Part shown: one piece after another, positions 15,721 through 33,363 of the stretch | Layout: each line of letters begins with the position of its first letter | How positions within the stretch are numbered: position 1 is the stretch's first letter | From: Caldilineaceae bacterium | GTDB lineage: Bacteria; Chloroflexota; Anaerolineae; Caldilineales; Caldilineaceae | DNA: 37,183 bases | Reading direction: 5' to 3' | Assembly: GCA_019637695.1 (NCBI GenBank) | Contig: JAHBVG010000006.1 | Coordinates: 93,227 to 130,409, forward strand | Notes under the pieces: model-generated | Databases searched by the model: none | What the model saw: only the letters and a program-made list of their open reading frames with translations | Told to the model about the DNA's origin: nothing | Position numbers and translations under genes: made by a program

Positions 15721-15741
15721 TACTCATTATTCATTACTCAT
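15721..15741. repeat. Short heptamer tandem (TACTCAT type)
   Basis: Three 7-base units, TACTCAT, TATTCAT, TACTCAT, lie in the gap between the second dehydratase and the creatininase-family gene. The same unit recurs at 19842-19869. It falls inside the longer open frame from 15661, which argues that this frame's first 38 codons are not real. Confidence 0.75.
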
Positions 15742-15774
15742 TTGCCGGACCCATCAGCTACTTTCAACAAGATT

Positions 15775-16572
15775 ATGTCCCAAACCACGACTCGCTATCT
15801 AGCCCATCTCACCTGGCCAGAGATAGCCGCGCTGGACAAGGAAGAGGGCGTGGTGATCTTGCCCATCGGTGCGGTGGAGCAGCATGGACCTCATCTGCCC
15901 ACGCTCACCGATACACTGATCGTCACCCATCTGCTCGACGTAGCGCTGGCGCGGCTCCCCGCGGAGGTGCGCGCCTGGGCGCTGCCCTCGCTCAACTACG
16001 GCAAGAGCAACGAACACAGCGGCTTTCCTGGCACGGTCAGCCTCTCCAATGCCACGCTCAACGCCGTGCTCCACGACATCGCCGGGAGCGTGGCATCGGC
16101 GGGCTTTCGACGGCTGGCGCTGATCAACGGGCACGGCGGCAACGTGGCCGTGCTCGAAGCGGCGGCGCGCGACATCCGCGCGGCAACGGGGCTGCTCTGC
16201 TTTTGCATCCAGCCATCCTTTTTGGTGGAGCCGCCCTTCGCCATCTCGGAGCAAGAGCGGCGGCTCGGCTTCCACGCCGGGGAGGTGGAGACCTCGCTGA
16301 TCCTCGCCATTGCGCCCGACCTCGTCCACATGGAGCGGGCGCTGGCCCACTATGCCCGTTTCCCCGACACGGGCACGCCTCTCTTTTTCTTCGGCCCGAC
16401 CATGACGGCCTGGCTCAGCCGCGATTGGAGCGAAAGCGGCGTCTTTGGCGACGCGACACTGGGCACAGCCGAAAAAGGAAGTGCGCTGATCGAATCCGCG
16501 GCGGATCGGCTGGCGACGCTGCTCACAGCGATTAGCCGCTTTGAACTGCCGGCGCGCACGAAAGGAAGTTGA
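15775..16572 (+). CDS. Creatininase-family amidohydrolase
   Basis: A 265-residue metal-dependent amidase of the creatininase family, which includes creatinine amidohydrolase, ArfB-type formamide hydrolases and MftE peptidase. Metal-site motifs are VEQHGPHLP (E35, H37), the following D46, NGHGGN (H120) and GFHAGEVETS (about 166-174, E170 or E172). The Glu two residues after the conserved His in true creatininase is Gly122 here, so this is not a classical creatininase; the HAGEVETS type is shared by FAPy hydrolases and mycofactocin MftE. I chose the ATG at 15775 because the first 38 codons of the longer frame cross heptamer repeats and show no family similarity. It runs into the next gene: its stop overlaps the frame of the amidohydrolase, whose ATG is six bases further on, and the AAAGGAAG for that gene lies inside this one. 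A role in opening a cyclic or N-linked intermediate is inferred. Confidence 0.9.
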   Translation: MSQTTTRYLAHLTWPEIAALDKEEGVVILPIGAVEQHGPHLPTLTDTLIVTHLLDVALARLPAEVRAWALPSLNYGKSNEHSGFPGTVSLSNATLNAVLHDIAGSVASAGFRRLALINGHGGNVAVLEAAARDIRAATGLLCFCIQPSFLVEPPFAISEQERRLGFHAGEVETSLILAIAPDLVHMERALAHYARFPDTGTPLFFFGPTMTAWLSRDWSESGVFGDATLGTAEKGSALIESAADRLATLLTAISRFELPARTKGS

Positions 16573-16577
16573 CGCCG

Positions 16578-17786
16578 ATGGATTGGATCTTGCGCAATGC
16601 CCGCATCAGAGACGATGCCGATCTCGTCGATATTGCCATCACCAACGGCGTGATCGCCGCCGTGGGATCGACGCTTCCACAGCGGGCGGATCAGGAATGG
16701 GATCTGGCCGGGCGGGCCGTGATCCCCGGCCTGATCGACGCCCATACCCATCTCGACAAAAGCTATCTGGCCGCAGCCAACCAGAGCGGCACGCTCATGG
16801 AGGCCATTGAAGTTTGGCGGCGCGTGAAGCAAAATCGATCCGCGGCGGAGTTTGAATGGTCGGCGCGGCGGGCGCTGAAAAGCGCCATCGCCCACGGCGT
16901 CACCGCCATGCGCTCCCATATTGACACCGAACATCGGGGCGATCTCGTAGCTGTGGAAGCATTGCTGACTCTGCGCGAGGAGATGAAGGATCGCATCGAC
17001 CTGCAATTGGTGGCGTTGGGCTTCCCCGGCAACGGCGCTGAGGCCGACGAAACCATAGAAAGCGCGCTGCGCCTGGGCGTCGATCTGATCGGCGGCGCGC
17101 CCGCCATCACCCCGGATCCGACGGCGACGGTGGACGCCGCCTTCGCCCTGGCCGAACGCTTTGGCAAGCCCATCGATCTCCACATCGACGAGACCGAAGA
17201 TGCGCAGATGCGCACGCTATCCACGTTGGCGGATCGCACACTGGCCCACGGCATGGAAGGGCAGGTGACGGCGGGCCACTGCTGTTCGCTGGCCTTTATG
17301 GACGATGCGAGCGCCGTCGCCGTCATTGATCAGGTGGCTAGGGCGCAGATCCATGTGATCACCCTGCCGCTCTGCAATCTCGTCCTCATGGGGCGAAACA
17401 TGCGCCCCACGCCCCGCGGCGTCACCCGTGTGGGGGAACTGCTGGCCCGCGGCGTCAACGTCTGCGCCGCGTCCGACAATGTGCAAGATCCCTTCAATCC
17501 GTTCGGTAGCTATGATCTGCTGCAAACGGCCAGCCTCAACGCCGCCCTCAACCACATGACCGGCGAATCCCAACTTTACGACTCTTTGAGCATGGTCACC
17601 ACCCGCCCAGCGCGTCTCCTCGGTCTGCCCGATGACGGTATCCGTGTCGGCGCGCCCGCCGATCTCGTGATCCTCGACGCCGAGCGCGTCCTCGACGCCG
17701 TCACCGCGCCGCCGATCCGCCTCGCCACCTTCAAGCGCGGACGACGCATCGTGCGGACGGAGATATCGGTGATTGGTGATTGGTGA
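16578..17786 (+). CDS. Cytosine deaminase-like amidohydrolase (intact metal site)
   Basis: A 402-residue amidohydrolase-superfamily enzyme closest by motif to cytosine deaminase (CodA) and isopropylammelide amidohydrolase (AtzC). Visible active-site residues are H56-T-H58 in DAHTHLDK, H202-I-D-E205 (metal ligand and proton-shuttling Glu), H234 in TAGHCCSL and D300 in SDNVQDPFNPFG. It should hydrolyse a C-N bond in a small heterocycle or cyclic amide; the exact substrate is uncertain. Start ATG 16578 follows AAAGGAAG (16561-16568); a TTG nine bases earlier is less likely. The creatininase-family gene ends six bases before, so the pair is co-translated. The last residues (VIGDW and the stop) are encoded by a heptamer repeat that begins at 17768. 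A paralogue with a damaged metal site follows. Confidence 0.92.
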   Translation: MDWILRNARIRDDADLVDIAITNGVIAAVGSTLPQRADQEWDLAGRAVIPGLIDAHTHLDKSYLAAANQSGTLMEAIEVWRRVKQNRSAAEFEWSARRALKSAIAHGVTAMRSHIDTEHRGDLVAVEALLTLREEMKDRIDLQLVALGFPGNGAEADETIESALRLGVDLIGGAPAITPDPTATVDAAFALAERFGKPIDLHIDETEDAQMRTLSTLADRTLAHGMEGQVTAGHCCSLAFMDDASAVAVIDQVARAQIHVITLPLCNLVLMGRNMRPTPRGVTRVGELLARGVNVCAASDNVQDPFNPFGSYDLLQTASLNAALNHMTGESQLYDSLSMVTTRPARLLGLPDDGIRVGAPADLVILDAERVLDAVTAPPIRLATFKRGRRIVRTEISVIGDW

Positions 17787-17823
17787 CTGGGGACTGGGGA
17801 TTAGGGACTGGGGATCGGGAATT
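17768..17823. repeat. STRR-like heptamer run, GG(G/T)GA(C/T)T, overlapping a gene end
   Basis: Eight successive 7-base units: GGTGATT, GGTGATT, GGTGACT, GGGGACT, GGGGATT, AGGGACT, GGGGATC, GGGAATT. Reverse-complemented and rotated they read CCCCA(A/G)T, the consensus long known for short tandemly repeated elements in heterocystous cyanobacteria. The stop codon of the preceding amidohydrolase (17784-17786) is in the third unit. Confidence 0.85.
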
Positions 17824-17844
17824 GTGTTCGTCCGCCGTCCGTCC

Positions 17845-17872
17845 ATCACACGCAACACGAATCACGCAACAC
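17845..17872. repeat. Heptamer run of a different sequence (GCAACAC/GAATCAC)
   Basis: Four 7-base units, ATCACAC, GCAACAC, GAATCAC, GCAACAC, sit 22 bases after the previous heptamer run and just upstream of the AAAGGA ribosome site of the next gene. The fixed 7-base period with changed sequence shows that the period, not the letters, is conserved. Confidence 0.7.
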
Positions 17873-17893
17873 GTTGAAAGGAATCTCCCACCC

Positions 17894-19135: not shown

Positions 19136-19163
19136 CACTATCCTCTATTGGCAAAGGAGTCGC

Positions 19164-19793: not shown

Positions 19794-19812
19794 ACTTTCG
19801 CTTAACTAAACA

Positions 19813-19852
19813 AGTAATGAGTAGGCGGGGGATGCTCTGCCTACTCATTACT
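19813..19852. terminator. 14-bp hairpin between convergent genes, built from a heptamer repeat
   Basis: Arms 19813-19826 and 19839-19852 are exact reverse complements around a 12-base G-rich loop. It lies between the ends of the glycosylase gene (19793) and the convergent lipoprotein gene (19893), so it can serve both as terminator. The right arm is the beginning of a TACTCAT heptamer run. Confidence 0.65.
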
Positions 19853-19869
19853 CATTACTCGTTATTCAT
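19842..19869. repeat. Heptamer tandem TACTCAT
   Basis: Four units, TACTCAT, TACTCAT, TACTCGT, TATTCAT. The same unit is found at 15721-15741, more than 4 kb away. Confidence 0.8.
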
Positions 19870-19892
19870 ATTTTCCCAACGGGTGGATCGTC

Positions 19893-20426: not shown

Positions 20427-20543
20427 AGATACCTCCTTGGTAGTTTGTGGATTGGTGATTTCACCCTATCCGAAGGGTTCTATGTCTATCTTCGCAGAGC
20501 GCCGTTTCTAAAGCGCTTCTCCGCGCGTCTCGCGGCGGAGGAC

Positions 20544-20578
20544 GGACGGCAGACCGCAGACGGCGGACGGCAGACCGC
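20544..20578. repeat. Heptamer run (GGACGGC/AGACCGC)
   Basis: Five 7-base units, GGACGGC, AGACCGC, AGACGGC, GGACGGC, AGACCGC, in the gap between the lipoprotein gene and the end of the giant regulator gene. Confidence 0.75.
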
Positions 20579-20590
20579 AGACCAATATCC

Positions 20591-20632
20591 AGTCCCCGAT
20601 CCCCAGTCCCCGATCCCCAATCCCCAACTCAC
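20591..20632. repeat. STRR-like heptamer run, (A/G)(A/G)TCCCC, touching the regulator's stop codon
   Basis: Six 7-base units, AGTCCCC, GATCCCC, AGTCCCC, GATCCCC, AATCCCC, AACTCAC, of the CCCCA(A/G)T type. The stop codon of the 1347-residue regulator (20629-20631) lies in the last degenerate unit. Confidence 0.85.
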
Positions 20633-23600
20633 AAATAGCGGAGCTGCCGGGCCAGGCGGATGGCGGATTCGATCTGAGCGCGGATCGTCCCTTGTTCGCC
20701 GCGCCGCCAGGCGAGGAGAATCTCGTCAATACGGGCGGCGAGGACGTCGGGCAGACGCTGTTGATCCGCCCCGGCGAGGATGTGGAGATAGTCGATGGCG
20801 GCGCGCAGATTCTCTTCATCGCTGGCGATGTCGATCAGCGGCCAGAGCGCTGTCCACTTGAAGGGGAGGCTGGCGTGGTTGGTGGGCAACTGCTGCCAGA
20901 GGCTGAGGGCGGCGTGCCCGTACTGTTTCGCTGGGGATCGATCCCCGGCGCGCCAGGCCAGCCAGCATTCGGCGGCGCGCGCCAGGGCGATATATTCGGG
21001 CATCCCTCCACAGTTGGCTATATAGAAAGCGCGCGCCGCTAGCGCCGTCACCTTGTCCACGGCGTCGAGTTGGCGGGCAGCGATGGTCAGATAGGTCAGG
21101 CAGCGCGCCTGCAAGGAAATATCGCCCTGCTCTTCGGCCATGCGCAGCGCCGTCTGCATGTGGATCTGTGCGGCGTCGGGTTCACCGTGCCAGAGGATGA
21201 AAAAACCCAATAAGAAATGAAAACTCCGAATGGTAGAGCCGCCGCCCGCCGCATATTGGGCAGCCAATGCCGCGCTTATATCGGCGACGGCCTCGTCCGA
21301 CGCCACACTGCGATTGCGCCGAAAGCTCATCAGCGCCCGGTGCTGGAAGAACAGGGCGCGCGCTTCGTAGCCACCCCACTGCTCTACGGCGGGCGCCAAC
21401 TCGATCAGCAATCGGGCGCTATCGTCCACCTTGCCCAGCCAGTAGTAGACCAGATCGATCTCCAGCAGAATATGGATCCACTCCTGCCACCAGGCTGCTC
21501 CATACCATTCGGTCTTCGCGTCGCCGCCATAGAGGGGATCCCCCAGCACACTGCGAGCCATGAGATAAGCGGCCTGGGCCTCCCCATACCGGTGCTGCTG
21601 CCGCCAGACATTGCCGAGCTTGCGGTGTAGACGCGCCCGATCGATACCCTGCGCCAGGGGGATGGCCTGCTGATAAATGGCCGTGGATTCCTCAGTCTGG
21701 CTTGTCAAAAAGAGCAGATCGCCCAACTTCTCATAGATCGCCAACGCATCGACCGGGGAGCGCGCAGACTCCTTTTCCAGCAGGGACAGGGCGCGTCGAT
21801 AGTTGCGGATGGCGTCGGCGTTGGCGTAGAGGCGCTGCGCAGATTCGGCAGCCTGTTGATAATAATGGATCGCTTTCGGAATGTCCCCAGCCGATTCATA
21901 GTGGATGGCGATCTGCCCGCTGATCCTGTCATAGCCCTGATCGGCGTCGGCAACCCCTGGGTTTCCTCTTTCAAGAGCGACGGCGACGCGGCGATGCAGC
22001 AGATGACGGTGGGCCTCGCTCATGCTCTGGTAAGCGACTTCGCGCAGTTTGTCGTGGCTGAAATCGTAGCTGTCGTTCCCCTTTTCACGCAGGATATGCC
22101 GTTGCCAGAGTTCGTCCAAATGGTGGACGAAGTCATCTTCGTGCAGATCGCTTGCCGCTGCCAGCACCGCCGATGTGAACTCGCGCCCCAGGGTAGCGGC
22201 CAGGCTGACAAGTTCGCGCGCACCCGACGAGAGATGGAGAAGCCGGGTATGGATCACCTTGTGGACCTTGGGCGGCAGATCGCCAGCGTTGACGAAGGAC
22301 GCAGATTCCGAAGATGGCGCGGATAGCCTCCCCCTATTGGCGCGCACCATTTCGACGACAAAGAGTGGATTGCCCTCAGTCTCACGGTGAAGCTGCGCTG
22401 CCTCCTCTGCGGGCAGCGAATAGCCCGCCACCGCTGACCCAACCCTGGCCGTGTCCGCGGCATTTAGTCGCCCCAATACGATCTCCGTCAATCGGCTGTC
22501 CCGATCCAGCGCGGTGAGCAGCGCGTTGACCGGGTGATCGGCGGTCACTTCCTCGCTGCGCATGGCTACCAAGAGCAACAGCGGCGCTTGTAGATCGTAG
22601 CGCAGCAGATAGTGGAGCCAATCCAGCATGTCGGGATCGCACCACTGGAGATCGTCGAGAAACAAGAGCAGCGGCTCACCGCGGTGGAGCAGCGCACGCG
22701 CCAGCGCCTCGAAGAATCGCTGGCGCTGCCATCCCTCATTCAGCGGCGATGGCGGCGGCAATTGGGGATAGGTGACCAGCAACTCGGGTAGCAAGCGCGC
22801 CGTCTCGCCCAGCCATACAGCGTCGAGCGACGGCAGCGCTTGGCGGATCGTCGGCGATCTCAGCCATGCGACCATCGGCGCGTAGGCCAGCGCGCCTTCG
22901 GCGGCGTAGCAGTGCGCAACGGCCACGGCGAATCCCTGCCGTTCGACCCAGGGGATCAGCTCCTCGGCCAGGCGAGTCTTGCCGATCCCCGCTTCACCGG
23001 CCAGGACCACCGTCTGGGCGCGACCATTCGAAGCGTTGCGCCAGGCGCGCTGCAATACTCTCCATTCGTCTTCGCGCCCGATCAGAGGTAGATCCCCTGC
23101 CACTGTGGACGGGGGCGGTGGCGCTTCCATATGCCACAGCCGTTCATAGATCGCTTGTGTAGCCGGACCCGGCTGCACGCCGAGTTCCCGTTGCAGCGTC
23201 GTTTCACAGGTGTGGTAGACGCGCAGCGCCGCGGCCTGATCCCCTTTGAGGGTGTAGAAATAGATGAGCCGCCGGTACGCCGACTCGTTCAGCCGATCAA
23301 GTTGCAGCCACCGTTGTCCATACTCGACGGCGCGGCCATAGTCGCGCCGTTCCTCAAGCAGATCGAGCAACTGCTCAAAGACGCGCATGGCGATCTGCTG
23401 TAACCGACTGCGGATGGGCTGGATCCAATCGTCGTAGCAACTGGGCAAGAGATCGCCTTGATAGAGCGCTGCCGCTTCCTCAAGACTGGGCAGATCATTG
23501 CTGTGGACGGCCAGGCTCTCGAAACGGGCAATATCCAGGCTAAAGGCGAGATCGTCGCGCCATTGGATCATCTGTGCGTCGGCATCTATGTAAGGATCGA

Positions 23601-24672
23601 TTTGGGGCAGGGTGCGACGCAGTTTGTAAAGCAGATTGCGCAGATTGCTCAACGCCTGGGTCTCGTCGGTGTCGGGCCAGAAGAGGAAGGCCAGGTGCTG
23701 GCGCGATGACGGGGATTGGCGGTGCAAGAGTAGATAGGCCAACAGCGCTTGCAGACGCGCCCCGGCCAGGATCACAGGTCGCTCCCCAACTGCGAGCATG
23801 AACCCTCCGAAGAGCCGGATATGGAGTTGAGCATCCTCGGCAACGGGTGAGCGTTCTTTGCTGTTGCTCGATTCTGTGGGGTGGGCGAGCGTAGAAGTTT
23901 GTTCCTCTGGCGGCAGAGCGGAGATGGCGATCTTTGGCAGCGCGCCTGTGTGAATCGCCTGATACAGATCTGTCATCGCCAGCGCGGGGACGCTGCCGAT
24001 CTCCTGGTTGATCAGGTGCGCAGAATGTTCGTATTGGCGGTATGCGGCGTCATGTTGACCCGTCTGCACATAGAACTCGATCAACCGACGTTGCGCCATT
24101 TCAGAGAGTGGATCGATCCTCACCCAGCGTCGCGCCTGCCGGATCGCGGCTATGAAATTGCCTCGGCTGGCATAGTCTGCGCTCAACTGATCCAGCGCTA
24201 TACACAGATCCTGGCGCAGATCCGTCTCGGTTGCGCGCTGCCATTCATCAAACTCTGGGCTATCCGGCAGGGAAAAGCCACTCAAAAAATCCCCACGATA
24301 GAGGGCAACCGCCTCGTCGAGCAAGGCCAATCTATCGCTGCTGTTGAGGCCGGTGGTCAACAGATGACGAAAGCGTGCAACATCAACCCAAAGATTTTCC
24401 ACAGGGGGAAGCGCAATCGAGTCGGAAATCGAGAGCCAACGATGTTGCAGGGAACCATGCAGTGAGGAAAGGACACGGCGCAAGCTGGCGCGCGCATGAT
24501 CTTGATCCGATTCGGGCCAGAGCAACGCCGCCAGCAGATCGCGGCGATGGGGTCGCCCATCCACTGCCAGATAGGCCAGGAGTGCAAGCGCCTTCTGTCG
24601 CTCAACACAGAGGGGGTTGCCATCCAACTCAATTCGAGGAGCGCCGAACAGAGTCAAAGCCAGCCCAGGCAT
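20629..24672 (-). CDS. SARP-like giant regulator with two BTAD modules, AAA ATPase and TPR-like tail
   Basis: A 1347-residue cytoplasmic signal-integrating ATPase, probably a transcriptional activator. Order by eye: a winged-helix plus bacterial transcriptional activator (BTAD) module (about residues 4-245); a short linker; a second complete module starting LHIRLFGGFMLAVG (about 283-515); then a STAND/AAA-type ATPase with PLIGREDEW, Walker A GEAGIGKT (559-566, K565) and Walker B LLLFLDDLQW (D673, D674); and a long helical TPR-like C-terminus with AIHYYQQAAESAQRLYANAD-type repeats. Most SARP/AfsR-like proteins carry one BTAD module; two in tandem is unusual. ATP-driven assembly followed by DNA binding is the family model; the inducing ligand and target genes are unknown. 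AGGAGG five bases before the ATG supports the start. A small dyad ATGAAT...ATTCAT (24730-24750) is upstream and might be an operator. Confidence 0.92.
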   Translation of the reverse strand: MPGLALTLFGAPRIELDGNPLCVERQKALALLAYLAVDGRPHRRDLLAALLWPESDQDHARASLRRVLSSLHGSLQHRWLSISDSIALPPVENLWVDVARFRHLLTTGLNSSDRLALLDEAVALYRGDFLSGFSLPDSPEFDEWQRATETDLRQDLCIALDQLSADYASRGNFIAAIRQARRWVRIDPLSEMAQRRLIEFYVQTGQHDAAYRQYEHSAHLINQEIGSVPALAMTDLYQAIHTGALPKIAISALPPEEQTSTLAHPTESSNSKERSPVAEDAQLHIRLFGGFMLAVGERPVILAGARLQALLAYLLLHRQSPSSRQHLAFLFWPDTDETQALSNLRNLLYKLRRTLPQIDPYIDADAQMIQWRDDLAFSLDIARFESLAVHSNDLPSLEEAAALYQGDLLPSCYDDWIQPIRSRLQQIAMRVFEQLLDLLEERRDYGRAVEYGQRWLQLDRLNESAYRRLIYFYTLKGDQAAALRVYHTCETTLQRELGVQPGPATQAIYERLWHMEAPPPPSTVAGDLPLIGREDEWRVLQRAWRNASNGRAQTVVLAGEAGIGKTRLAEELIPWVERQGFAVAVAHCYAAEGALAYAPMVAWLRSPTIRQALPSLDAVWLGETARLLPELLVTYPQLPPPSPLNEGWQRQRFFEALARALLHRGEPLLLFLDDLQWCDPDMLDWLHYLLRYDLQAPLLLLVAMRSEEVTADHPVNALLTALDRDSRLTEIVLGRLNAADTARVGSAVAGYSLPAEEAAQLHRETEGNPLFVVEMVRANRGRLSAPSSESASFVNAGDLPPKVHKVIHTRLLHLSSGARELVSLAATLGREFTSAVLAAASDLHEDDFVHHLDELWQRHILREKGNDSYDFSHDKLREVAYQSMSEAHRHLLHRRVAVALERGNPGVADADQGYDRISGQIAIHYESAGDIPKAIHYYQQAAESAQRLYANADAIRNYRRALSLLEKESARSPVDALAIYEKLGDLLFLTSQTEESTAIYQQAIPLAQGIDRARLHRKLGNVWRQQHRYGEAQAAYLMARSVLGDPLYGGDAKTEWYGAAWWQEWIHILLEIDLVYYWLGKVDDSARLLIELAPAVEQWGGYEARALFFQHRALMSFRRNRSVASDEAVADISAALAAQYAAGGGSTIRSFHFLLGFFILWHGEPDAAQIHMQTALRMAEEQGDISLQARCLTYLTIAARQLDAVDKVTALAARAFYIANCGGMPEYIALARAAECWLAWRAGDRSPAKQYGHAALSLWQQLPTNHASLPFKWTALWPLIDIASDEENLRAAIDYLHILAGADQQRLPDVLAARIDEILLAWRRGEQGTIRAQIESAIRLARQLRYL

Positions 24673-25954: not shown

Positions 25955-25995
25955 CAAAGCCTCCTTGTCCCTAAAACAGCTTATCCGTTCGTAAT

Positions 25996-26227: not shown

Positions 26228-26263
26228 TCTCGACCAATCTTATCCCTTCAAAAGGAGGCAACC

Positions 26264-27166
26264 ATGAATCTCGTCGTAGGGGCAACTGGGATCTTAGGGC
26301 AGGAGATCTGCCGCCAATTGTGTGCTGCCGGCAAACCGTTACGGGCGCTCGTGCGCGCCAGTGCGGACCCGGCCAAATTAGAGCAGTTGAGCCAATGGGG
26401 TGCAACCCTCGTCTACGGGGATCTGCGCAATCGCCCTTCGCTTGATCTGGCCTGTCGCGGCGTGGATGCTGTGATCGTCACAGTCTCGGCCATGCCGTTT
26501 TCGTACAAACCAGGCGAAAACAACATCCAAAATGTGGATGTGCAAGGGATGTACGATCTCGTCGACGCGGCAAAAGCGGCGGGTGTACACCACTTCGTCT
26601 ACACCTCGGCCACCGGCAACATCCAACTCGATGCGCCGCTGCCCAACGCCAAGCGCGCCGTGGAAAGATATCTGCGCGCCAGCGGGATGATCTACACCAT
26701 CCTCCGCCCAGGCTACTTTATGGAAGTCTGGCTCAGCCCGGCGGTCGGCTTTGACGCCGCTCACGCCAAAGCCACCATCTACGGTGACGGCACAAAACCG
26801 CTGTCGTGGATCGCCGTGCCCGACATTGCCCGCTTTGCCGTCGCCAGCCTGGACAATCCGGCAGCGCGCAACGCCATTATCGAGTTGGGCGGTCCCGAAG
26901 CGCTCACGCCGCTGCAAGTGGTGGAAATCTTCGAGCGGATCGGCGGACGCAAATTTGAATTACAATTCGCTCCCGCCGAAGCGCTCACCGCCCAATGGAA
27001 AGCCGCCACCGATCCCATGCAGCAGTCGTTCAGCGCCATCATGCTTGGCTACGCCGGCGGCGATCCCATTGATATGGGCAAGACGCTCAAGGCGTTCCCC
27101 ATGCAGATGACGACCGTGGCCGAGTACGCCGAGCGCACGCTAAAGGCCGCGTTGCAACCGGCGTGA
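26264..27166 (+). CDS. NmrA-like atypical short-chain dehydrogenase/reductase
   Basis: A 300-residue NAD(P)-binding Rossmann protein. The N-terminal nucleotide motif is G6-ATGILG (VVGATGILG), typical of atypical or NmrA-type SDRs. The strand YGDLRN marks the end of the second Rossmann unit, and the segment HHFVYTSATGN holds the usual Ser/Thr. A canonical YxxxK catalytic pair is not evident; the nearest equivalent is NAKRAVERYL, as often in NmrA-like proteins that sense the redox state or reduce small quinone-like compounds. AAAAGGAGG about seven bases upstream makes the start at 26264 secure. The gene is followed by heptamer repeats and a hairpin. No neighbour tells what its substrate is; being next to the tungsten locus may be chance. 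Confidence 0.9.
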   Translation: MNLVVGATGILGQEICRQLCAAGKPLRALVRASADPAKLEQLSQWGATLVYGDLRNRPSLDLACRGVDAVIVTVSAMPFSYKPGENNIQNVDVQGMYDLVDAAKAAGVHHFVYTSATGNIQLDAPLPNAKRAVERYLRASGMIYTILRPGYFMEVWLSPAVGFDAAHAKATIYGDGTKPLSWIAVPDIARFAVASLDNPAARNAIIELGGPEALTPLQVVEIFERIGGRKFELQFAPAEALTAQWKAATDPMQQSFSAIMLGYAGGDPIDMGKTLKAFPMQMTTVAEYAERTLKAALQPA

Positions 27167-27173
27167 CAGTGGG

Positions 27174-27208
27174 ACGACCGACGGCGGACGACCGACGACG
27201 GACGCCGC
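27174..27208. repeat. Heptamer run (ACGACCG/ACGACGG)
   Basis: Five 7-base units, ACGACCG, ACGGCGG, ACGACCG, ACGACGG, ACGCCGC, beginning eight bases after the SDR gene's stop codon. Similar to the run at 20544-20578. Confidence 0.75.
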
Positions 27209-27237
27209 CGCTGGAGACAGCCGGACAACCGACGACC

Positions 27238-27278
27238 ATGTGGAGATAGCGTTTCAGCGAGAGACGTTATCTCCACAT
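27238..27278. terminator. Hairpin after the SDR gene
   Basis: Arms 27238-27248 and 27268-27278 are exact reverse complements (11 bp), and the inner 7 bases on each side pair with only two G-U-compatible mismatches, giving an 18-bp stem with a 5-base loop. No T-tract follows. Confidence 0.6.
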
Positions 27279-27288
27279 AGCCCGCCCC

Positions 27289-27330
27289 AATCCCCAGTCC
27301 CCAGTCCCCAATCACCAATCCCCAGTCCCC
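27289..27330. repeat. STRR-like heptamer run, A(A/G)TCCCC
   Basis: Six 7-base units, AATCCCC, AGTCCCC, AGTCCCC, AATCACC, AATCCCC, AGTCCCC, immediately after the hairpin. It is the clearest CCCCA(A/G)T run in the window. Confidence 0.85.
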
Positions 27331-27394
27331 TCTCCCTGCCCACAAGCACAGGATCGATCTACCCGCCTGGCGGTGGTTGCACAGCGACCAATGT

Positions 27395-27400
27395 TATAAT
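27395..27400 (+). promoter_or_regulatory. Candidate -10 box for the moeA operon
   Basis: A perfect TATAAT at 27395-27400 lies 62 bases before the chosen moeA start. No well-spaced -35 box is visible (TTGCAC is too close), so this is tentative. Confidence 0.35.
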
Positions 27401-27462
27401 AATGAAAAGACCTGTCAGGATTGGATTTCCCTATCCCCGATTGTGAACAGCCGGAACTGGCG

Positions 27463-28692
27463 ATGCCCGAATTTTTCAACGTAAAAACACCACCTGATGC
27501 CTGGAAGTTGTTCGAGACACATTTTACGCCGCGCCTGCAAAAGGAGCGCGTGCCCACCTTCGCCGCATTGGATCGCGTCCTCGCCGAAGATCTGACTTCC
27601 GCACAAGATCTGCCCGAATTCCCCCGCTCGACAGTCGATGGCTACGCCGTCAACGCCGCCGATACCTATGGCGCATCGGCCACGTTGCCCGCCTTCCTCA
27701 CCCTCATTGGGGAAGTGTCCATGGGCCAGCCCAGCACCATTGAGGTAGGGATGGGCGAAGCTGCGCTCGTCCACACGGGCGGTATGATCCCCGATGGGGC
27801 CAACAGCGTGGTGATGATCGAACAGACGCAAGGGGTGGACGCGGCCAGCATCGAAGTGTTGAAGCCGGTGGCCGAAGGCGAAAATGTGATCCAGATCGGC
27901 GAGGATATCCGCCGCGGCGATCCCATCCTGGTCGCGGGGACGATGCTGCGCCCACAGGAGATCGGCGGGCTGTTGGCGCTGGGCATCACCGAGGTGACGG
28001 TGGCGAAGCCGCCGCGTGTCGCCATCCTCTCCACCGGCGATGAAGTCGTGCCGCCCGATCAACCGCCGATGCCGGGGCAGGTGCGCGACATCAACTCGTA
28101 CACATTGGCCGCCCTCACCCGCCGCGCCGGTGGGGAACCCGTGTTGGGCGGCATCATCCCCGATGATCGGGACGCGCTCACCGCTGCCGTCGCCAAAGCC
28201 CACAGCGAAGCTGAGATCGTCGTCCTCTCCGCGGGGAGTTCGGTCAGCTATCGCGATCTGAGCGTCGAGGTCATTGATGCGTTGGGCAAACCCGGCGTCC
28301 TCGTCCACGGGTTGAGTGTGCGCCCCGGCAAGCCGACGATCATGGCCGTCTGTGATGGCGTCCCTGTCTTTGGGCTACCGGGCAACCCGGTCTCGGCCAT
28401 GGTGATCTTCGATCTGGTGGTAGCGCCGGCGATTCGATCCTATTTGGGCGCGACCACCCAACCCAAACAACAGGTACAGGCGCGGCTTTCGCGCAACGTC
28501 GCCTCCACCACCGGCCGCGAGGATTACGTGCAGGTACGGCTGGAGGAACGAGGCGGCGAGTTGTGGGCCGTTCCTGTTTTTGGCAAATCCAACCTGATCT
28601 ACACGCTCGTCCATGCCGAAGGGACGGTCAAAGTCGCGCTCGATTCTAACGGCATCCGCGAGGGAACGTGGGTGACGGTCTATCTGCATTGA
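27463..28692 (+). CDS. moeA: Molybdopterin molybdenumtransferase MoeA
   Basis: A 409-residue MoeA, the enzyme that inserts molybdate or tungstate into adenylylated pterin to give the active cofactor. Motifs: PRSTVDGYAV (about 55-64), GMIPDGANSVVMIE, STGDEVVP (about 190-197), the metal-site segment AGSSVSYRDL (D265 expected to be catalytic), RPGKP (287-291) and GLPGNPVSA (304-312). Length matches the family. I chose the ATG at 27463 because MPEFFNVKT is the normal MoeA N-terminus; a TTG at 27421 would add 14 unmatched residues, but ribosome sites are weak for both. It heads a run of tungsten-related genes (second moeA, tupBCA, aor). The stop codon lies in the first unit of a TTGACGA heptamer array. 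Confidence 0.93.
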   Translation: MPEFFNVKTPPDAWKLFETHFTPRLQKERVPTFAALDRVLAEDLTSAQDLPEFPRSTVDGYAVNAADTYGASATLPAFLTLIGEVSMGQPSTIEVGMGEAALVHTGGMIPDGANSVVMIEQTQGVDAASIEVLKPVAEGENVIQIGEDIRRGDPILVAGTMLRPQEIGGLLALGITEVTVAKPPRVAILSTGDEVVPPDQPPMPGQVRDINSYTLAALTRRAGGEPVLGGIIPDDRDALTAAVAKAHSEAEIVVLSAGSSVSYRDLSVEVIDALGKPGVLVHGLSVRPGKPTIMAVCDGVPVFGLPGNPVSAMVIFDLVVAPAIRSYLGATTQPKQQVQARLSRNVASTTGREDYVQVRLEERGGELWAVPVFGKSNLIYTLVHAEGTVKVALDSNGIREGTWVTVYLH

Positions 28693-28758
28693 CGATTGAC
28701 GATTGACGATTGACGATTGACGATTGACGATTGACGATTGACGATTGACGATTGACGA
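28689..28758. repeat. Perfect 10-copy heptamer array TTGACGA
   Basis: Ten identical, uninterrupted 7-base units. The array starts inside the last codons of moeA and fills most of the gap to the second moeA gene. It has no spacers and is not a CRISPR array. The lack of variation implies recent expansion. Confidence 0.95.
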
Positions 28759-28829
28759 CAGACGACGCACTCTGCGCTATCTGCTAACTGCTAATGCTAC
28801 TTGCTCTCTGCACCACCGGAAACACAACC

Positions 28830-30773
28830 ATGTCCATTCCACCCGAACGCAACATATACCTCCACGATGTGGCGCTGAGCGAGGCGCTGGAAAACTGGCA
28901 TGCGGCCCTGAACGCCAACGGGCTGCTGGCGCCGCTGGGCGTGGAGACGATCTCGCTGGTCGAGGCGCTGGGACGGGTGACGGCGGAGCCGATCTGGGCG
29001 CGCATTTCGTCGCCCCATTACCACGCCTCGGCCATGGATGGCTACGCCGTGCGCGCCGTCGATACGCGCGGGGCCAGCGAAACATCCCCGCGGTTGCTGC
29101 GCATGGGGGATCAGGCCATCGCCGTGGATACGGGCGACCCGCTGCCCGCGGGCACCGACGCGGTGATCATGATCGAGGACACGCAGATCGTCGGCGACAG
29201 CATCGAAATTCTGGCGACGACAGCGCCGTGGACCCATGTGCGCCCCATGGGCGAGGATATGGTGGCGACCGAACTTGTCTTGCCCGCCCATCACCGATTG
29301 CGTCCGCAAGATTTGGGCGCGGCCGCCGGCAGCGGACACAGCACGGTGACGGTCTTTCGCCGTCCGCGCGTGGCGGTGCTGCCCACGGGGAGCGAATTGG
29401 TGCCGGTGGGCAGCGATCTCAAGCCCGGCGACATTGTGGAATACAACTCGCTCATGTTGGGCGCGCAGGCCGAGGAAGCCGGGGCCGTCGTCACCCGCTG
29501 GCCCATTATTGTGGACAATTACGCCGACATCCGGGCTGCCGTAGAAAGTGCGCTGGCCGATCACGATCTGGTGGTGATCAACGCCGGGTCGTCGGCTGGC
29601 TCCGAGGATTTCACGGCGTCGATTGTGCGCGAATTGGGCGAATTACGCGTCCACGGCATCGCCATCCGCCCCGGCCATCCCGTAGTGTTGGGCGTGGCGC
29701 AGGGGAAAGCATTGGTCGGCATCCCCGGCTATCCCGTCTCGGCGGCAATGACCTTCGATATCATCGTCAAACCCATCCTCTATCGTTGGCAGGGGATCAT
29801 CCCCCCCGAACTGCCTCAGATCGAGGCGACTATCACCCGCAAGCTGGCGTCGCCCATGGGCGAGGATCATTTTGTGCGCGTCACTCTGGGCAAAGTCGGG
29901 GATCGGGTGGTGGCGACCCCGTTGGCGGGCGGCGCTGGCGTGCTTATGTCGCTGGTCAAGGCCGATGGCATCGTCACCGTTCCCCGCTTTTCCGAAGGGC
30001 ATGGAGCCGGAGAACGGGTGAGCGTGGCCTTGCTGCGTCCGCCGTCGGTCATCGACAAGACCATCGTCGCCATCGGCAGCCATGACATGACGCTCGATCT
30101 GCTGGCCGAGCGTCTGCGCCGCGATCACCCGGATCGCACCCTCTCGTCGGCGCATGTGGGCAGTCTGAGCGGGCTGCTCTCTTTGCAGCGCGGCGAGGCC
30201 CACTTTGCCGGTTCGCACCTTTTGGACGAGGCGAGCGGCGAATACAACGTCGATTTCATCCGCCGCATTTTGACGCCCCACGGCGTGCGCGTGGTGCTGC
30301 TCGGCTTTGTGGATCGACAGCAGGGCTTGATCGTTCCGCGCGGCAACCCCAAACGGATCCACGGCTTGGACGATCTCGTGCGCGAGGATCTGGTCTTCGT
30401 CAACCGGCAGCGCGGCGCGGGGACGCGGGTGCTGCTCGACTATGTGTTGAAGCAGCGCGGGATCAATCCCCGTTCCATCACCGGCTACGACCGCCAGGAG
30501 TATACCCATCTGGCCGTGGCCGCTGCCGTCAAGAGCGGCGCAGCGGATTGCGGTCTCGGCATCCTGGCCGCGGCGCGGGCGCTGGATCTCGATTTCGTGC
30601 CGCTCTTGGACGAACGCTACGATCTGATCATCCCCGTGGAGCATTTTGAGAGCGAGACGCTTTCCCCGTTGATGTCGCTCATCCGCGGCGCGGATGCCGA
30701 TTTTGTGAACGCAGTGGAGCGGATGGGCGGCTACAGCGTCGCCCAAATGGGCAAAGTCCTGGCCGAGCTGTAA
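28830..30773 (+). CDS. MoeA fused to a periplasmic-binding-protein-like (molybdate/tungstate-type) domain
   Basis: A 647-residue fusion. Residues 1 to about 400 are MoeA-like: SPHYHASAMDGYAV (about 61-74), GDPLPAGTDAVIMIED (about 102-117), PTGSELVPVG, NAGSSAGSEDFT (about 251-262), RPGHP and GIPGYPVSAAM (about 297-307). From about residue 411 (VAIGSHDMTLDLLAERL) to the end is a PBP-like domain (LSLQRGEAHFAGSHLLDE, GYDRQEYTHLAVAAAVKSG, LVIP-type strands) similar to the ligand-binding domain found with LysR-type or ModE-like proteins. Such fusions are known and are thought to bind or sense the oxyanion during metal insertion. It lies between moeA and tupBCA, so tungsten is the probable metal. 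The ATG at 28830 is chosen since the longer frame starts in repeat-derived sequence. The ribosome site is weak. Confidence 0.92.
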   Translation: MSIPPERNIYLHDVALSEALENWHAALNANGLLAPLGVETISLVEALGRVTAEPIWARISSPHYHASAMDGYAVRAVDTRGASETSPRLLRMGDQAIAVDTGDPLPAGTDAVIMIEDTQIVGDSIEILATTAPWTHVRPMGEDMVATELVLPAHHRLRPQDLGAAAGSGHSTVTVFRRPRVAVLPTGSELVPVGSDLKPGDIVEYNSLMLGAQAEEAGAVVTRWPIIVDNYADIRAAVESALADHDLVVINAGSSAGSEDFTASIVRELGELRVHGIAIRPGHPVVLGVAQGKALVGIPGYPVSAAMTFDIIVKPILYRWQGIIPPELPQIEATITRKLASPMGEDHFVRVTLGKVGDRVVATPLAGGAGVLMSLVKADGIVTVPRFSEGHGAGERVSVALLRPPSVIDKTIVAIGSHDMTLDLLAERLRRDHPDRTLSSAHVGSLSGLLSLQRGEAHFAGSHLLDEASGEYNVDFIRRILTPHGVRVVLLGFVDRQQGLIVPRGNPKRIHGLDDLVREDLVFVNRQRGAGTRVLLDYVLKQRGINPRSITGYDRQEYTHLAVAAAVKSGAADCGLGILAAARALDLDFVPLLDERYDLIIPVEHFESETLSPLMSLIRGADADFVNAVERMGGYSVAQMGKVLAEL

Positions 30774-30789
30774 CTCATCAGAGATCTGC

Positions 30790-30840
30790 AAAGTCCCGGC
30801 ACTTGACGAACATTGCCAGAAAAAGTGCCAGGGACTTTGG
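30790..30840. terminator. 16-bp hairpin with one bulge between the moeA fusion and tupB
   Basis: Arms 30790-30805 and 30824-30840 pair with a single bulged A around an 18-base loop. It lies 17 bases after the stop codon and 14 bases before the tupB ribosome site. It may be a terminator, attenuator or RNA-stability element; no T-tract follows. Confidence 0.6.
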
Positions 30841-30853
30841 ATGTACACAGTGT

Positions 30854-30861
30854 AAAGGAGG
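30854..30861 (+). promoter_or_regulatory. Strong ribosome-binding site that points to an ATC start for tupB
   Basis: AAAGGAGG is a near-perfect Shine-Dalgarno sequence. Six bases downstream, in the tupB frame, is ATC (30868-30870), not ATG, GTG or TTG. The frame is closed by TAA at 30853-30855, so translation must start after this. Confidence 0.8.
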
Positions 30862-30867
30862 ATCACC

Positions 30868-31581
30868 ATCGGCGAAATTTTCAGGGGCTTTGTCGAAGCG
30901 TTGCGACTGATCGGCGAAGGCAACCCTGCGCTTTTACAGATCGTCTGGCTGTCGCTGCAAGTGTCGGGGATCGCCCTGGTCATCAGTACAGTGCTTGGCA
31001 TCCCCGTTGGGGTTATGCTGGGGTTGACGCGCTTTCCAGGGCGGCAGATCGCCGTGGCGCTAATTTATACGGGGATGGCCTTCCCGCCGGTGGTGATTGG
31101 GCTTTTTGTCTACCTCATGCTCTCGCGCAGTGGACCGCTGGGGCAGTTGGGGTGGGCGATCATCCCGGCGCTCTTTACCCCGTGGGCGATGATTGTAGCG
31201 CAGACGATCATCGCTTTTCCGCTGGTGGCGGGATTCACTATGGCCTCGGTGGGAAGCGTGGACCCGGCGTTGCGGCTACAAGTGCGGGCGCTGGGCGCGT
31301 CCCATTGGCAGACGATTGTCGCCATCCTCGATGAAGCGCGGCCCGGTGTGATCGCCGCTATCGTCGCCGGGTTCGGCGGCATTATCTCTGAAGTGGGCGC
31401 GGTGATCATGGTGGGCGGCAACATCGAAGGGCGCACACGCGTCCTCACCACCGCCATTGTGTTGGAGACGAGCAAAGGCAACTTTGAACTGGCGATTGCG
31501 CTGGGCCTGATCCTTTTGGGTATTGCCTTTGCGACAAACTTTGTGATTGTTTCATTACAGGGATCGCCCTCGCATCCATGA
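30868..31581 (+). CDS. tupB: Tungstate ABC transporter permease TupB, with probable ATC start
   Basis: A 237-residue inner-membrane permease of the TupB type. It has the expected opening IGEIFRGFVEALRLIGEGNPALLQIVWLSL, about five hydrophobic helices and the cytoplasmic EAA-like loop (about LRLQVRALGASHWQTIVAILDEARPG) that contacts the ATPase. The later phrase ISEVGAVIMVGGNIEGRTRVLTTAIVLET is characteristic of TupB. Starting at the nearest conventional codon, TTG 30901, would cut the first 11 family residues and has no ribosome site, so I place the start at ATC 30868, six bases after AAAGGAGG. A miscalled base (ATG to ATC) is an equally good explanation. It overlaps tupC by four bases (ATGA), so the two are translationally coupled. 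Confidence 0.9.
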   Translation: MGEIFRGFVEALRLIGEGNPALLQIVWLSLQVSGIALVISTVLGIPVGVMLGLTRFPGRQIAVALIYTGMAFPPVVIGLFVYLMLSRSGPLGQLGWAIIPALFTPWAMIVAQTIIAFPLVAGFTMASVGSVDPALRLQVRALGASHWQTIVAILDEARPGVIAAIVAGFGGIISEVGAVIMVGGNIEGRTRVLTTAIVLETSKGNFELAIALGLILLGIAFATNFVIVSLQGSPSHP

Positions 31582-32309
31582 ACGCTGAACCCATTTTTGA
31601 GGTGCGCAATGTGACCATGTCTTATGGCAAGCGTTGTGTACTCGCCATTGATGAATTCGATATTTTGAAGGGCGAGATCCTGGCGTTGGTGGGACCGAGC
31701 GGTGTGGGCAAGAGTACGCTGCTGCGCATCCTCAACTTTTTGGAGCCGCCCACCACTGGTCTCATCCGCTTTCAGGGGCGGACCTTCCAAAGCGGCCAGG
31801 ATGTGCCGCTGTCTGTGCGTCGTCGCGTCACCACCGTCTTCCAAAAGCCTGTGCTCTTGCGGCGCAGCGTAGAAGCCAACGTGGCCTACGGGCTGCAGTT
31901 GCGCGGGGAACGGGTCAACGGACAGGTCCACGCTGCGCTGGAAGCAGTGGGATTGGCGGATCTGGTGAAGCAGCCGGCGCGCACCCTCTCCAGCGGCGAG
32001 GCGCAGCGATTGGCCCTGGCCCGCGCCATGATCCTGCGCCCGGATGTGCTGCTGCTCGACGAACCGACGGCCAATCTCGATCCCTACAATGTGGGGCTGA
32101 TTGAAAAGATGGTGCGACAGATCAACACCGAACACGGCACGACCATTGTGCTTGTCACCCATAACGTCTTTCAGGCCAAACGGCTCGCCGGGCGCGCAGC
32201 CTTGATGCTCGATGGCCGCATTGTCGAGGCTGCGGATGTCCATCGTTTTTTTGAATCGCCGCGCGACGAACGCACATCTGCGTTTGTGCGCGGCGAAATG
32301 GTCTATTAA
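31578..32309 (+). CDS. tupC: Tungstate ABC transporter ATPase TupC
   Basis: A 243-residue ABC ATPase that powers tungstate uptake by TupB. All family motifs are intact: Walker A GPSGVGKST (39-47), Q-loop VFQKPVLLRRSV (Q89), signature LSSGEAQ (137-143), Walker B VLLLDEPT (D161, E162) and H-loop VTHN (H195). The Q-loop wording FQKPVLLR is typical for the tungstate/molybdate-like group. The start ATG overlaps the tupB stop, and the next gene, tupA, begins 14 bases after its own stop. Assignment to tungstate rather than molybdate rests on the TupA and TupB neighbours. Confidence 0.93.
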   Translation: MNAEPIFEVRNVTMSYGKRCVLAIDEFDILKGEILALVGPSGVGKSTLLRILNFLEPPTTGLIRFQGRTFQSGQDVPLSVRRRVTTVFQKPVLLRRSVEANVAYGLQLRGERVNGQVHAALEAVGLADLVKQPARTLSSGEAQRLALARAMILRPDVLLLDEPTANLDPYNVGLIEKMVRQINTEHGTTIVLVTHNVFQAKRLAGRAALMLDGRIVEAADVHRFFESPRDERTSAFVRGEMVY

Positions 32310-32323
32310 GGCTATCCCCGAAA

Positions 32324-33226
32324 ATGATGATCCACGAAGCCTCACAAAGAAAGACCAGGTTGACGAAAATTACGTTCCTTGTCGTCTTTTCCTTATTGAT
32401 TGCGGCCTGCCAGGGCATCCCTGCCGCGCCGCTGCAACTATCGGCGACGCCTGCCGCAATGACGGGAACTCGGCTAATCTTGGCGACGACGACCAGCACC
32501 CAGGATTCGGGGCTGCTGGACTTTCTGCTGCCCAGTTTTGAAAGTGAATTTGGGATCGACGTAGATGTGGTCGCCGTGGGAACCGGCCAGGCGCTCAAAC
32601 TGGGCGAGGATGGCAACGCCGATGTGCTGCTCGTCCATGCCCGCGCCCAAGAGGACGCTTTCATGGCCGCCGGGCATGGTGTACGCCGTGAAGATGTCAT
32701 GTATAATGATTTTGTGATCGTCGGTCCATCTGATGATCCCGCCGACATTGCCGGAAGCGCCAGCGCCGCCGAAGCGCTGACGAAGATCGCCGAAAACGAA
32801 TCCCCCTTCGTCTCGCGCGGCGATGAATCGGGCACGCATGTGATGGAGCGGTCTCTGTGGGCCGCCGCCGGGATCGAACCCACCGGCGATTGGTACATTT
32901 CCGCCGGGCAGGGGATGGGCGCCGTGCTGACCCTGACCAATGAGCAGCAAGCCTACACTCTCAGCGACCGCGCCACCTATCTGGCGCGTACCCTGCAAGG
33001 GACCGAACTCGTCATCCTGTTTGAAGGGGACCCGGCGCTCTTCAACCCATATGGGATCATCGCCGTCAACCCGGCCAAACACGCCAACATTCAGGGCGAG
33101 TTGGCAAACCAGTTCATCGATTGGATGATCTCGCTCCCGGCCCAGGAGCAGATCGCCCAATTTGGCATAGATCGTTTTGGTCAACCGCTCTTCGTCCCCG
33201 ACGCGGAGAGCTGGCGCAATCGGTAG
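32324..33226 (+). CDS. tupA: Tungstate-binding lipoprotein TupA
   Basis: A 300-residue substrate-binding lipoprotein of the tungstate transporter. The signal peptide ends in the lipobox LLIAAC with C29 lipidated. The hallmark TTTSTQDSGLLD, present in TupA but not in ModA or WtpA, follows at about residues 48-59, and GTGQALKLGEDGNADVLLVHA and SRGDESGTHVMERSLW complete the binding site. The protein probably sits outside the membrane and hands WO4(2-) to TupB. It is the last transporter gene here, whereas tupA is often first. The first codons (32329-32354) coincide with a degenerate copy of the repeat that frames the GxxExxY gene, so the true start could be TTG at 32360, which would also give a proper signal peptide. 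Confidence 0.94.
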   Translation: MMIHEASQRKTRLTKITFLVVFSLLIAACQGIPAAPLQLSATPAAMTGTRLILATTTSTQDSGLLDFLLPSFESEFGIDVDVVAVGTGQALKLGEDGNADVLLVHARAQEDAFMAAGHGVRREDVMYNDFVIVGPSDDPADIAGSASAAEALTKIAENESPFVSRGDESGTHVMERSLWAAAGIEPTGDWYISAGQGMGAVLTLTNEQQAYTLSDRATYLARTLQGTELVILFEGDPALFNPYGIIAVNPAKHANIQGELANQFIDWMISLPAQEQIAQFGIDRFGQPLFVPDAESWRNR

Positions 33227-33231
33227 AAGAG

Positions 33232-33363
33232 GGGATTGGTGAATGGTGATTAGTGACTAGGTTAGCAGGCGATTGGGCGATCCAGGGATTGACCCTCACC
33301 AATCCCTGGATCGCCCAATCGCCTAATCTCTTCCCCAATCACCAATCACCATTCACCAATCCC
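33232..33363. repeat. Nested double inverted repeat between tupA and aor
   Basis: An outer pair of exact 20-bp arms (33232-33251 and 33344-33363) encloses an inner pair of exact 24-bp arms (33267-33290 and 33301-33324) with a 10-base loop. Arms contain heptamer units such as GGTGATT and CACCAAT. It occupies almost the whole gap and ends 18 bases before the aor ribosome site. Likely a transcription terminator or mRNA processing site separating transporter and enzyme expression. Confidence 0.85.

Follow-up and report, generated by a model that had tools for sequence, protein, structure and literature searches.

The gaps between genes in a 37,183-nucleotide stretch from a Caldilineaceae bacterium (assembly GCA_019637695.1, contig JAHBVG010000006.1, positions 93,227 to 130,409 of the forward strand; hereafter the window) hold tandem arrays of seven-base words. 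When two arrays of opposite strand share a gap, the G-rich arm stands first in all pairs counted in G000 and its relatives (44/44), and this main regularity was missed by the initial annotation of the window. We tentatively regard the arrays as related words at the edges of gaps, which would be made by replication slipping by one 7-base unit together with copying from arm to arm. This reading is based on the period of 7, the clustering of the words, the G-first order, the presence of the same word on both arms in many pairs, and the change of words between species. Heptamer repeats have been known in bacteria for decades, and the excerpted text of two papers that treat them (PMC4692102 and PMC4679880) gives no accepted origin. 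The 7-base arrays belong to this known kind of repeat, with a new and sharper set of rules. These rules (G-first facing arms, matching arms, and word change at the same place between relatives) are testable on genomes and in the laboratory, and the arrays bear on ideas of how gene-end hairpins arise.

Period, strand polarity and facing pairs

In the window, a degenerate scan detected 11 segments at period 7, two at period 6 and none at period 8, and 100 dinucleotide shuffles gave a mean of 0.04 segments at period 7. The source genome (designated G000) is a draft of 6,833,196 bases in 161 contigs with 88.8% completeness. We sampled 390,385 bases of G000, as well as 199 kb, 141 kb, 40 kb and 34 kb of the related genomes G001, G013, G034 and G027, respectively, and the counts are sample-based. 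Many stretches were chosen from contigs already known for matches (C24, C46 and C57 of G000 in addition to the window's C118; G001:C32 and C65; G007:C18; G019:C1 and C34; G034:C3; G027:C6 and C48), and the array densities are therefore biased. This choice has no obvious influence on the period spectrum, on polarity or on word sharing. The comparison set contains one genome per species.

With an exact-array criterion of at least 11 lag matches, the G000 sample contained 46 period-7 arrays, compared with a mean of 0.33 in three shuffles. Twenty-nine of the 46 are intergenic and 17 lie in called genes; the gene calls are based on a home-made codon score, and arrays within genes may be miscalled. 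Other periods gave none at 4, 5, 10 and 11, two at 6, nine at 8, one at 9, six at 12, two at 13, 26 at 14 and one at 15. Period 7 is thus commoner than 6 and 8, the opposite of the outcome that the initial annotation had named as its refutation. The non-coding DNA of five related genomes, pooled to 153,675 bases, contained 92 arrays at period 7, 26 at 8, 11 at 9, four at 6, one at 10 and none at 4 and 5. The 53 arrays at period 14 and 16 arrays at period 16 in the same bases were taken as alternating words. Named records from several phyla (551,077 bases, ATTGACG excluded) yielded 88 arrays at period 7, 13 each at 8 and 9, and 1, 1 and 0 at 4, 5 and 6, respectively.

Some contigs start or stop within long heptamer arrays (the starts of G027:C55 and G019:C57 and the end of G027:C48), indicating that arrays break assemblies and that their lengths may be under-assembled. 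An assembly artefact is unlikely to be the source of the arrays, because tandem ATTGACG is present in named isolates (Larkinella terrae, Geomonas limicola and Lacihabitans sp. CS3-21).

Arrays were found in 48 of the 188 gene gaps examined in G000. The occupation of about a quarter of the gaps matters for reading intergenic DNA as regulatory signal and for assembly. Among 99 arrays between co-directional genes, 44 overlap the stop codon or begin within 20 nt past it, which is only a moderate excess over random placement (31.3 ± 4.2). The G-rich strand is the sense strand in 40 of these 44, with three reversed and one tie. In 28 arrays ending within 40 nt 5′ of a start codon, the C-rich strand is sense in 26 and reversed in two, and the remaining 27 arrays have a C-rich sense strand in 20 cases and a G-rich one in six. 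Three-frame stop codons were considered as the reason for a unit of 7 and rejected; of the 44 arrays near stops, 26 contain a stop triplet in sense and 12 in antisense. This excess is suggestive, but arrays starting in the stop codon carry one by construction.

Opposite-strand arrays occur together in 42 of 375 gaps and form the 44 pairs mentioned above, in which the G-rich array is always first. An inverted pair is identical on both strands, so the G-first order belongs to the pair itself, whichever way transcription runs. In 28/44 pairs the two arms have the same word, within one change, in comparison with 249/2339 between gaps of the same genome (Fisher p 1.4e-16). Exact inverted repeats of length 12 or more on period 7 in the gaps of seven genomes comprise 45 G-first, no C-first and two equal cases. 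Ordinary inverted repeats of the same length in these genomes comprise 64 G-first, 21 C-first and 18 equal cases (Fisher p 8e-5 against the period-7 class without ties), and some of those counted as ordinary are visibly fragments of heptamer words.

Gene-end hairpins with arms of period about 8–10, such as CACGAAGGCACACGAAG and GCAGATTGCGCAGATGG, were also observed in orthologous 3′ flanks (e.g. in G001 after g32324 and in G032 after MoeA). Arms of period 8–10 are G-first in 25/29 cases in the gaps of seven genomes, suggesting that the 7-base arms may lie at the edge of a broader class.

Vocabulary and turnover of the words

The 46 arrays of the G000 sample contain 22 distinct words. These words differ from their nearest neighbours by 1.18 changes on average, compared with 1.70 ± 0.14 for random intergenic heptamers. 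The corresponding values are 1.13 versus 1.84 ± 0.19 in G001 and 1.00 versus 1.80 ± 0.17 in G013, with all random heptamers taken from the intergenic DNA of G000. The proposal of the initial annotation that runs outside the CCCCA(A/G)T family share only their period does not hold, because strand polarity is shared too and the words are near neighbours.

The GGGGAYT family gave 118 + 100 = 218 (overlapping) matches in G000 and the reversed pattern none. It is present in 10 of 61 genomes (G000 and 60 relatives), namely G000, its sole congener, all seven genomes of genus g7, and g13, and in 11 of 400 sampled genomes of the phylum. The backwards form, GGGGTYA, occurs in 6/8 genomes of genus g9. 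Small numbers of GGGGTYA were also noticed in some genomes outside the family (in families such as f44, f54 and f80); GGGGAYT is lacking in most of these genomes and accompanies GGGGTYA in a few, and this is another sign of a clade-specific vocabulary. Further lineage-specific words are GTGATCC and GTCGTCC in G001, AATGGCG and TATCGAG in G013, ACTGATA in G034 (locus L124), and CAGTGGT in G031.

A search of a collection spanning 84,980 species for three tandem copies of ATTGACG located them in at least 118 stretches. The matches listed include Chloroflexota, Bacteroidota, Acidobacteriota, Verrucomicrobiota, Planctomycetota, Desulfobacterales and others, with some phylum names deduced from the class or genus that the title of the record gives. 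We compared 80 of these at least 118 stretches as loci from named records. Each was picked for having an ATTGACG array, and the 80 loci are therefore not an unbiased sample of bacteria. Nine of the 58 words of G000 and its relatives recur among 61 words of the 80 loci; about three would be expected if the 1172 classes were equiprobable, a figure uncorrected for composition, and the overlap was not used as support.

Words switch inside single arrays with the 7-base step intact, as judged by eye (L025:12324-12446, L032:2468-2535 and L034:2217-2258). The array at L033:5982-6047, also judged by eye, changes from GCGTAGT to GCCGTCT and then to GCTGTCT in an unbroken step. Words have probably been copied from site to site in the genome, judging from their clustering and from the occurrence of one family at dozens of sites. 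A single motif behind all words (NYTGSGN) was rejected, as expectation-maximization alignment yielded no single shared consensus; its information relative to random heptamers was 4.01 versus 3.44 ± 0.20 in G000 and 4.05 versus 3.34 ± 0.11 for the pooled words. Four GGG runs on one strand are present in 51/190 arrays, and a G-quadruplex as the general cause was ruled out by the 139 arrays lacking them.

Word turnover was followed in the 3′ flanks of 17 G000 genes, which were compared with up to seven relatives in 230 species pairs. DNA identity in matched genes is 70–85% to the congener and about 78–87% within g7, and words differing at two or more of the seven bases were counted as different. 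Both species have an array in 14 pairs, one species in 80 and neither in 136. The words differ in 13 of the 14 ortholog pairs. Sharing between unrelated flanks of different genomes amounts to 20/213, and orthologous sharing is no commoner than this, indicating that an orthologous position retains no visible trace of the word. For example, the 3′ end of MoeA carries ATTGACG in G000, GTAGTGC arms in G001, GACGGCA-like arms in G007 and G034, and, by eye, terminator-like hairpins in G019 and G027. In G001, a long GTGATCC/GTGATTC array and its inverted partner occupy the gap that follows the first amidohydrolase gene, and the two amidohydrolase genes overlap in G007, G032 and G034. The initial annotation had taken a constant period with changing sequence as the mark of a common generating process, and this part agrees with the turnover of words between species. 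Its corollary of an absence of spreading is not supported, because words are clustered and one family occupies dozens of sites.

Among the 80 named loci, an unclassified metagenome-assembled genome (MAG), RI_153, and an Anaerolineae MAG come closest. The nearest named relative is the RI_153 locus (L222), with 72–90% protein identity over four genes. We also observed a called gene with several 7-base arrays (at 15257, 15918, 15955, 16270 and 16350) in L025:13832-16778 of C24. Its frame aligns with L222 over 890 amino acids at 72% identity, and L222 has arrays at matching places, some with other words. Heptamer arrays may thus also lie within a coding frame; the frame is uncalled in L222, where it possibly runs off the stretch.

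Proposed origin and competing explanations

Slippage with arm-to-arm copying would operate as follows. A nascent strand with the G-richer array would unpair and re-pair one unit off, by which copies would be gained or lost. It could then fold back or switch template and write the complementary arm downstream, with a G-first inverted repeat and two arms kept alike as the outcome. Template switching between arrays at common short stretches might swap words in register. Selection against frame damage would leave arrays mainly intergenic, often beginning in or just past a stop codon. The array hairpins may end or protect transcripts. The wider proposal that, in many phyla, general replication enzymes write G-first inverted 7-base pairs in gaps and keep overwriting them, with words changing between the orthologous gaps of sister species and the arms staying matched, is possible, though less likely than not.

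Several observations weigh against slippage with arm copying. The model leaves the choice of 7 unexplained, and it explains the G-first order poorly for words barely richer in G than in C. Because G-first is common in ordinary hairpins too, part of the order is not special to heptamers. Single arrays follow the polarity more loosely: those in the first half of co-directional gaps are G-rich in 44/62 cases (16 C-rich and two ties) and those in the second half C-rich in 33/37, and the rule fits 14/16 arrays in convergent gaps and only 5/8 in divergent gaps. An exact inverted repeat of length 12 or more occurs in only 16/48 array gaps of G000 (14/19 in G001 and 14/18 in G013); the corresponding numbers for gaps of at least 60 bases without arrays are 28/115, 31/72 and 20/34. 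The named loci contain 15 same-word pairs, which come from eight loci whose titles name four phyla or more; 13 of these pairs are G-first and two are C-first. ATTGACG arrays of the named loci are sense in 20/29 cases near stops and only 6/12 near starts, indicating that single arrays obey the rule less well outside this family, and 22 of 89 lie within long open frames. The 14 ortholog pairs stem from seven genes, six of them from the MoeA gene alone. A GGGGACT word is kept at L029_8866 in G000 and G001, as seen by eye and under the array threshold, and L222 is mixed, with different words at one corresponding place and the GGGGAYT family kept at another. Moreover, there is one genome per species, and we infer both slippage, as copy-number change, and fold-back.

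The main rival is that function drives the arrays: gaps would be kept supplied with transcript-end hairpins, as terminators or for 3′ protection, and repeats would be the raw material. Inverted repeats of length 11 or more are present in 34/54 orthologous gaps of at least 60 bases, compared with 1/270 single-base shuffles, and the 3′ end of MoeA has such a repeat in 4/8 species with unrelated sequence, including the two terminator-like hairpins described above. Five of the seven window stretches that were folded are far better than shuffles; the exceptions are the array gaps 17787-17893 (z +1.75) and 20538-20631 (z −1.86), which fold no clearly better and count against this explanation. Divergent gaps are rarer among array gaps in G000 (4/48 versus 22/140) and G001 (0/19 versus 14/83), but no such deficit exists in G013 (2/18 versus 4/38). 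Orthologous gaps do not agree on an inverted repeat beyond expectation (both 45, one 39 and neither 9 of 93 pairs), so conserved hairpin sites were rejected. Selection for hairpins also leaves the period of 7 unexplained, and we consider it unlikely as the driving force.

A purely local slippage, acting in each gap on a resident heptamer and favoured because about 7 nt contact the polymerase, appears somewhat less likely still. The contact proposal is that of Mrazek 2007, as cited in the excerpted text of PMC4692102 and PMC4679880. The sharp period-7 peak in unrelated genomes and the many different words are consistent with it. However, the words of one genome resemble each other more than random intergenic heptamers do, the GGGGAYT family is not matched by its reversed pattern (218 versus 0), and the arms of one gap have words in common.

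Slippage with arm copying calls on no dedicated enzyme, which the initial annotation had offered as an alternative and which is unsupported by our limited tests. The reverse transcriptase domain PF00078 (RVT_1) gave no match in G000 (89% complete; two first-look candidates were scored, and a divergent enzyme could escape) and none in array-rich G013 (98% complete; no candidate). It gave 1, 4, 4 and 3 matches in array-rich G001, G027, G032 and G034, respectively, a further point against slippage with arm copying, and it was found in several genomes without GGGGAYT arrays, e.g. G005 and G011. The transposase domain PF01797 (Y1_Tnp) gave one weak partial match in G000 (24.7 bits, profile positions 64-120) and seven matches each in G007 and G012, both poor in GGGGAYT; G027, G032 and G034 were outside this search. 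G007 has 19 GGGGAYT matches, and 80 kb of its sequence contained no array of period 7; G012 has no GGGGAYT match. G007 and G019, both poor in arrays, belong to the same genus as array-rich G027, G032 and G034. A MutS-family domain (MutS_V) was detected in 19/19 genomes, and loss of MutS was rejected as the cause. The presence of the tested domains (RVT_1, Y1 and MutS) does not follow the arrays.

A mobile hairpin family like the repetitive extragenic palindromic (REP) sequences and their paired form, REPIN, moved by a transposase similar to that of IS200/IS605 (Y1, or the REP-associated RAYT), would fit the short paired inverted arms, which are intergenic, dispersed and clade-specific. It is very unlikely because neither sequence nor length is fixed (22 words in 46 arrays), the words at the same gene end differ between species, and PF01797 has only a weak partial match in G000, yet seven each in G007 and G012. 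Equally remote, or slightly more so, are RNA-templated tandem words from a telomerase-like bacterial reverse transcriptase comparable with DRT10. The ATTGGGG words look telomere-like, which was counted in favour of this idea together with the RVT_1 matches in four array-rich genomes. The absence of matches in G000 and G013, their presence in G005 and G011, and the dozens of templates that dozens of words per genome would demand (22 words in the G000 sample) largely refute it, unless a divergent enzyme escaped PF00078. DRT10 makes tandem-repeat cDNA with a motif length that differs between systems, and one such cDNA has a 9-nt period (excerpted text of PMC12632851).

In the open-licence literature searched, no report was found of heptamer arrays in Chloroflexota, of G-first facing arms or of word replacement. 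The cyanobacterial short tandemly repeated repetitive (STRR) sequences have the consensus CCCCA(A/G)T. The window arrays resemble them in their 7-base tandem units and in being intergenic and dispersed, and the consensus recognized by the initial annotation is indeed present at 20593-20627 and 27285-27336. In contrast to the STRR sequences, the host is assigned to Chloroflexota, the vocabulary is wider with lineage-specific words, and the other window arrays consist mostly of other words.

Rehm et al. 2015 (PMC4692102) described heptamers GGGGA(C/T)T in Nostoc PCC 7120 and GGGAATC in Xanthomonas, with discussion of G-quadruplexes, and mentioned three Calothrix heptamers. According to the excerpted text, those repeats share with ours the GGGGA(T/C)T word family, the mostly intergenic location, the sense orientation near stops and the opposite one near starts (here 40/44 and 26/28), and the depletion between divergent genes, and inverted pairs are known in Xanthomonas. 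Our arrays differ from these G-quadruplex repeats, as excerpted, in their many word families, with four GGG runs in 51/190 arrays only, in the G-first order of all 44 facing pairs, and in words that vary between species. MacGregor 2015 (PMC4679880) reported TAACTGA direct repeats in Beggiatoaceae, Cyanobacteria and Bacteroidetes, i.e. heptamer direct repeats across unrelated phyla, and the ACTGATA array of G034 is the same word. In the excerpted text, that system consists of one word located mostly right before start codons, with 169 direct sets and one indirect repeat, unlike the many words found here near both stops and starts with inverted partners. The many copies of short intergenic palindromic units are reminiscent of REP/REPIN as presented in excerpts of PMC3116915 and PMC3733652, although our arrays have no fixed palindrome and no transposase association in the genomes searched.

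Arrays and neighbouring genes in the window

Every 7-base array at the sites listed in the initial annotation is present, as detected by Tandem Repeats Finder or, for 33231-33260, by the degenerate lag-7 scan (Table 1).

Table 1. Heptamer arrays and associated hairpins in the window (TRF, Tandem Repeats Finder; z, folding score against shuffles).
Feature	Position	Strand	Context and evidence
Hairpin 5′ arm, G-richer	15641..15662	+	5 nt 3′ of the stop of MR_MLE enolase-family gene 14502-15635 (Pfam); fold z −5.81
Hairpin 3′ arm, C-rich, array TTACTCA	15720..15743	+	Ends ~32 nt 5′ of the creatininase-family gene start (15775); TRF 15720-15742; fold
G-word array GGTGATT/GGGGACT	17765..17822	+	Covers stop 17784-17786 of amidohydrolase gene 16578-17786; TRF 17768-17802
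C-word array CACGCAA	17848..17873	+	5′ of second amidohydrolase gene (17894); TRF
Hairpin on AATGAGT/TACTCAT	19813..19852	+	Arms 19813-19830 and 19835-19852; two G-U pairs in RNA fold; z −7.23
Continuation of the array of hairpin 19813..19852	to 19867	+	TRF 19842-19869
Array GACGGCA/GACCGCA	20536..20583	+	Gap shared with 20593..20627; TRF 20545-20583
Array GGGGATT/GGGGATC/GGGGACT	20593..20627	-	1 nt past the stop of BTAD/AAA regulator gene 20629-24672; TRF 20589-20627
G-word array GACGACC/GACGGCG	27173..27207	+	6 nt past the stop of NmrA-family gene 26264-27166; TRF 27172-27204
Inverted repeat apart from arrays	27239..27277	+	Between 27173..27207 and 27285..27336; not scored period 7; fold of 27167-27316 z −7.57
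C-word array CCCCAAT/CCCCAGT	27285..27336	+	5′ of MoeA gene; TRF 27285-27330
ATTGACG array, 10.1 exact copies	28688..28766	+	TRF 28688-28758
Short C-word array GCTAACT	28776..28794	+	Near MoeA/PBP-like fusion gene 28794-30773; TRF 28776-28799
Outer 5′ arm, G words GGGGATT GGTGAAT GGTGATT	33231..33260	+	Past stop 33224-33226 of substrate-binding gene 32324-33226
Inner perfect 25-bp hairpin	33267..33324	+	Arms 33267-33291 and 33300-33324
Outer 3′ arm, C words CACCAAT etc.	33332..33361	+	Part of the 5′-arm word order in reverse complement; TRF 33335-33361

The clearest case is the gap 33227-33393, in which outer arms with the common stretch GATTGGTGAATGGTGATT enclose the 25-bp hairpin and the fold reaches −96.5 kcal/mol (z −13.16). 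The first unit of the ATTGACG array holds the TGA stop codon (28690-28692) of the MoeA gene 27421-28692. In the gap with the arrays 20536..20583 and 20593..20627, the order on the + strand is the G-richer array followed by the CCCC array. No Rfam match was obtained in the window.

Additional 7-base segments were observed at 12491-12524 (AAGAAGA-type), 13874-13904 (AGTGAAC-type) and 35893-35910 (TTTTTCT). Long repeats of period 6, 12 and 42 at 7380-8059 lie within a 1600-amino-acid open frame (5706-10508; bacterial SH3 domain, Pfam) and are apparently a coding repeat with no link to the 7-base arrays. In the region 27421-35289, an ABC transporter set and an aldehyde ferredoxin oxidoreductase accompany two neighbouring MoeA genes, of which the second carries a fused PBP-like domain; by its Pfam content, the region is likely to be a tungstate/molybdate cofactor cluster.

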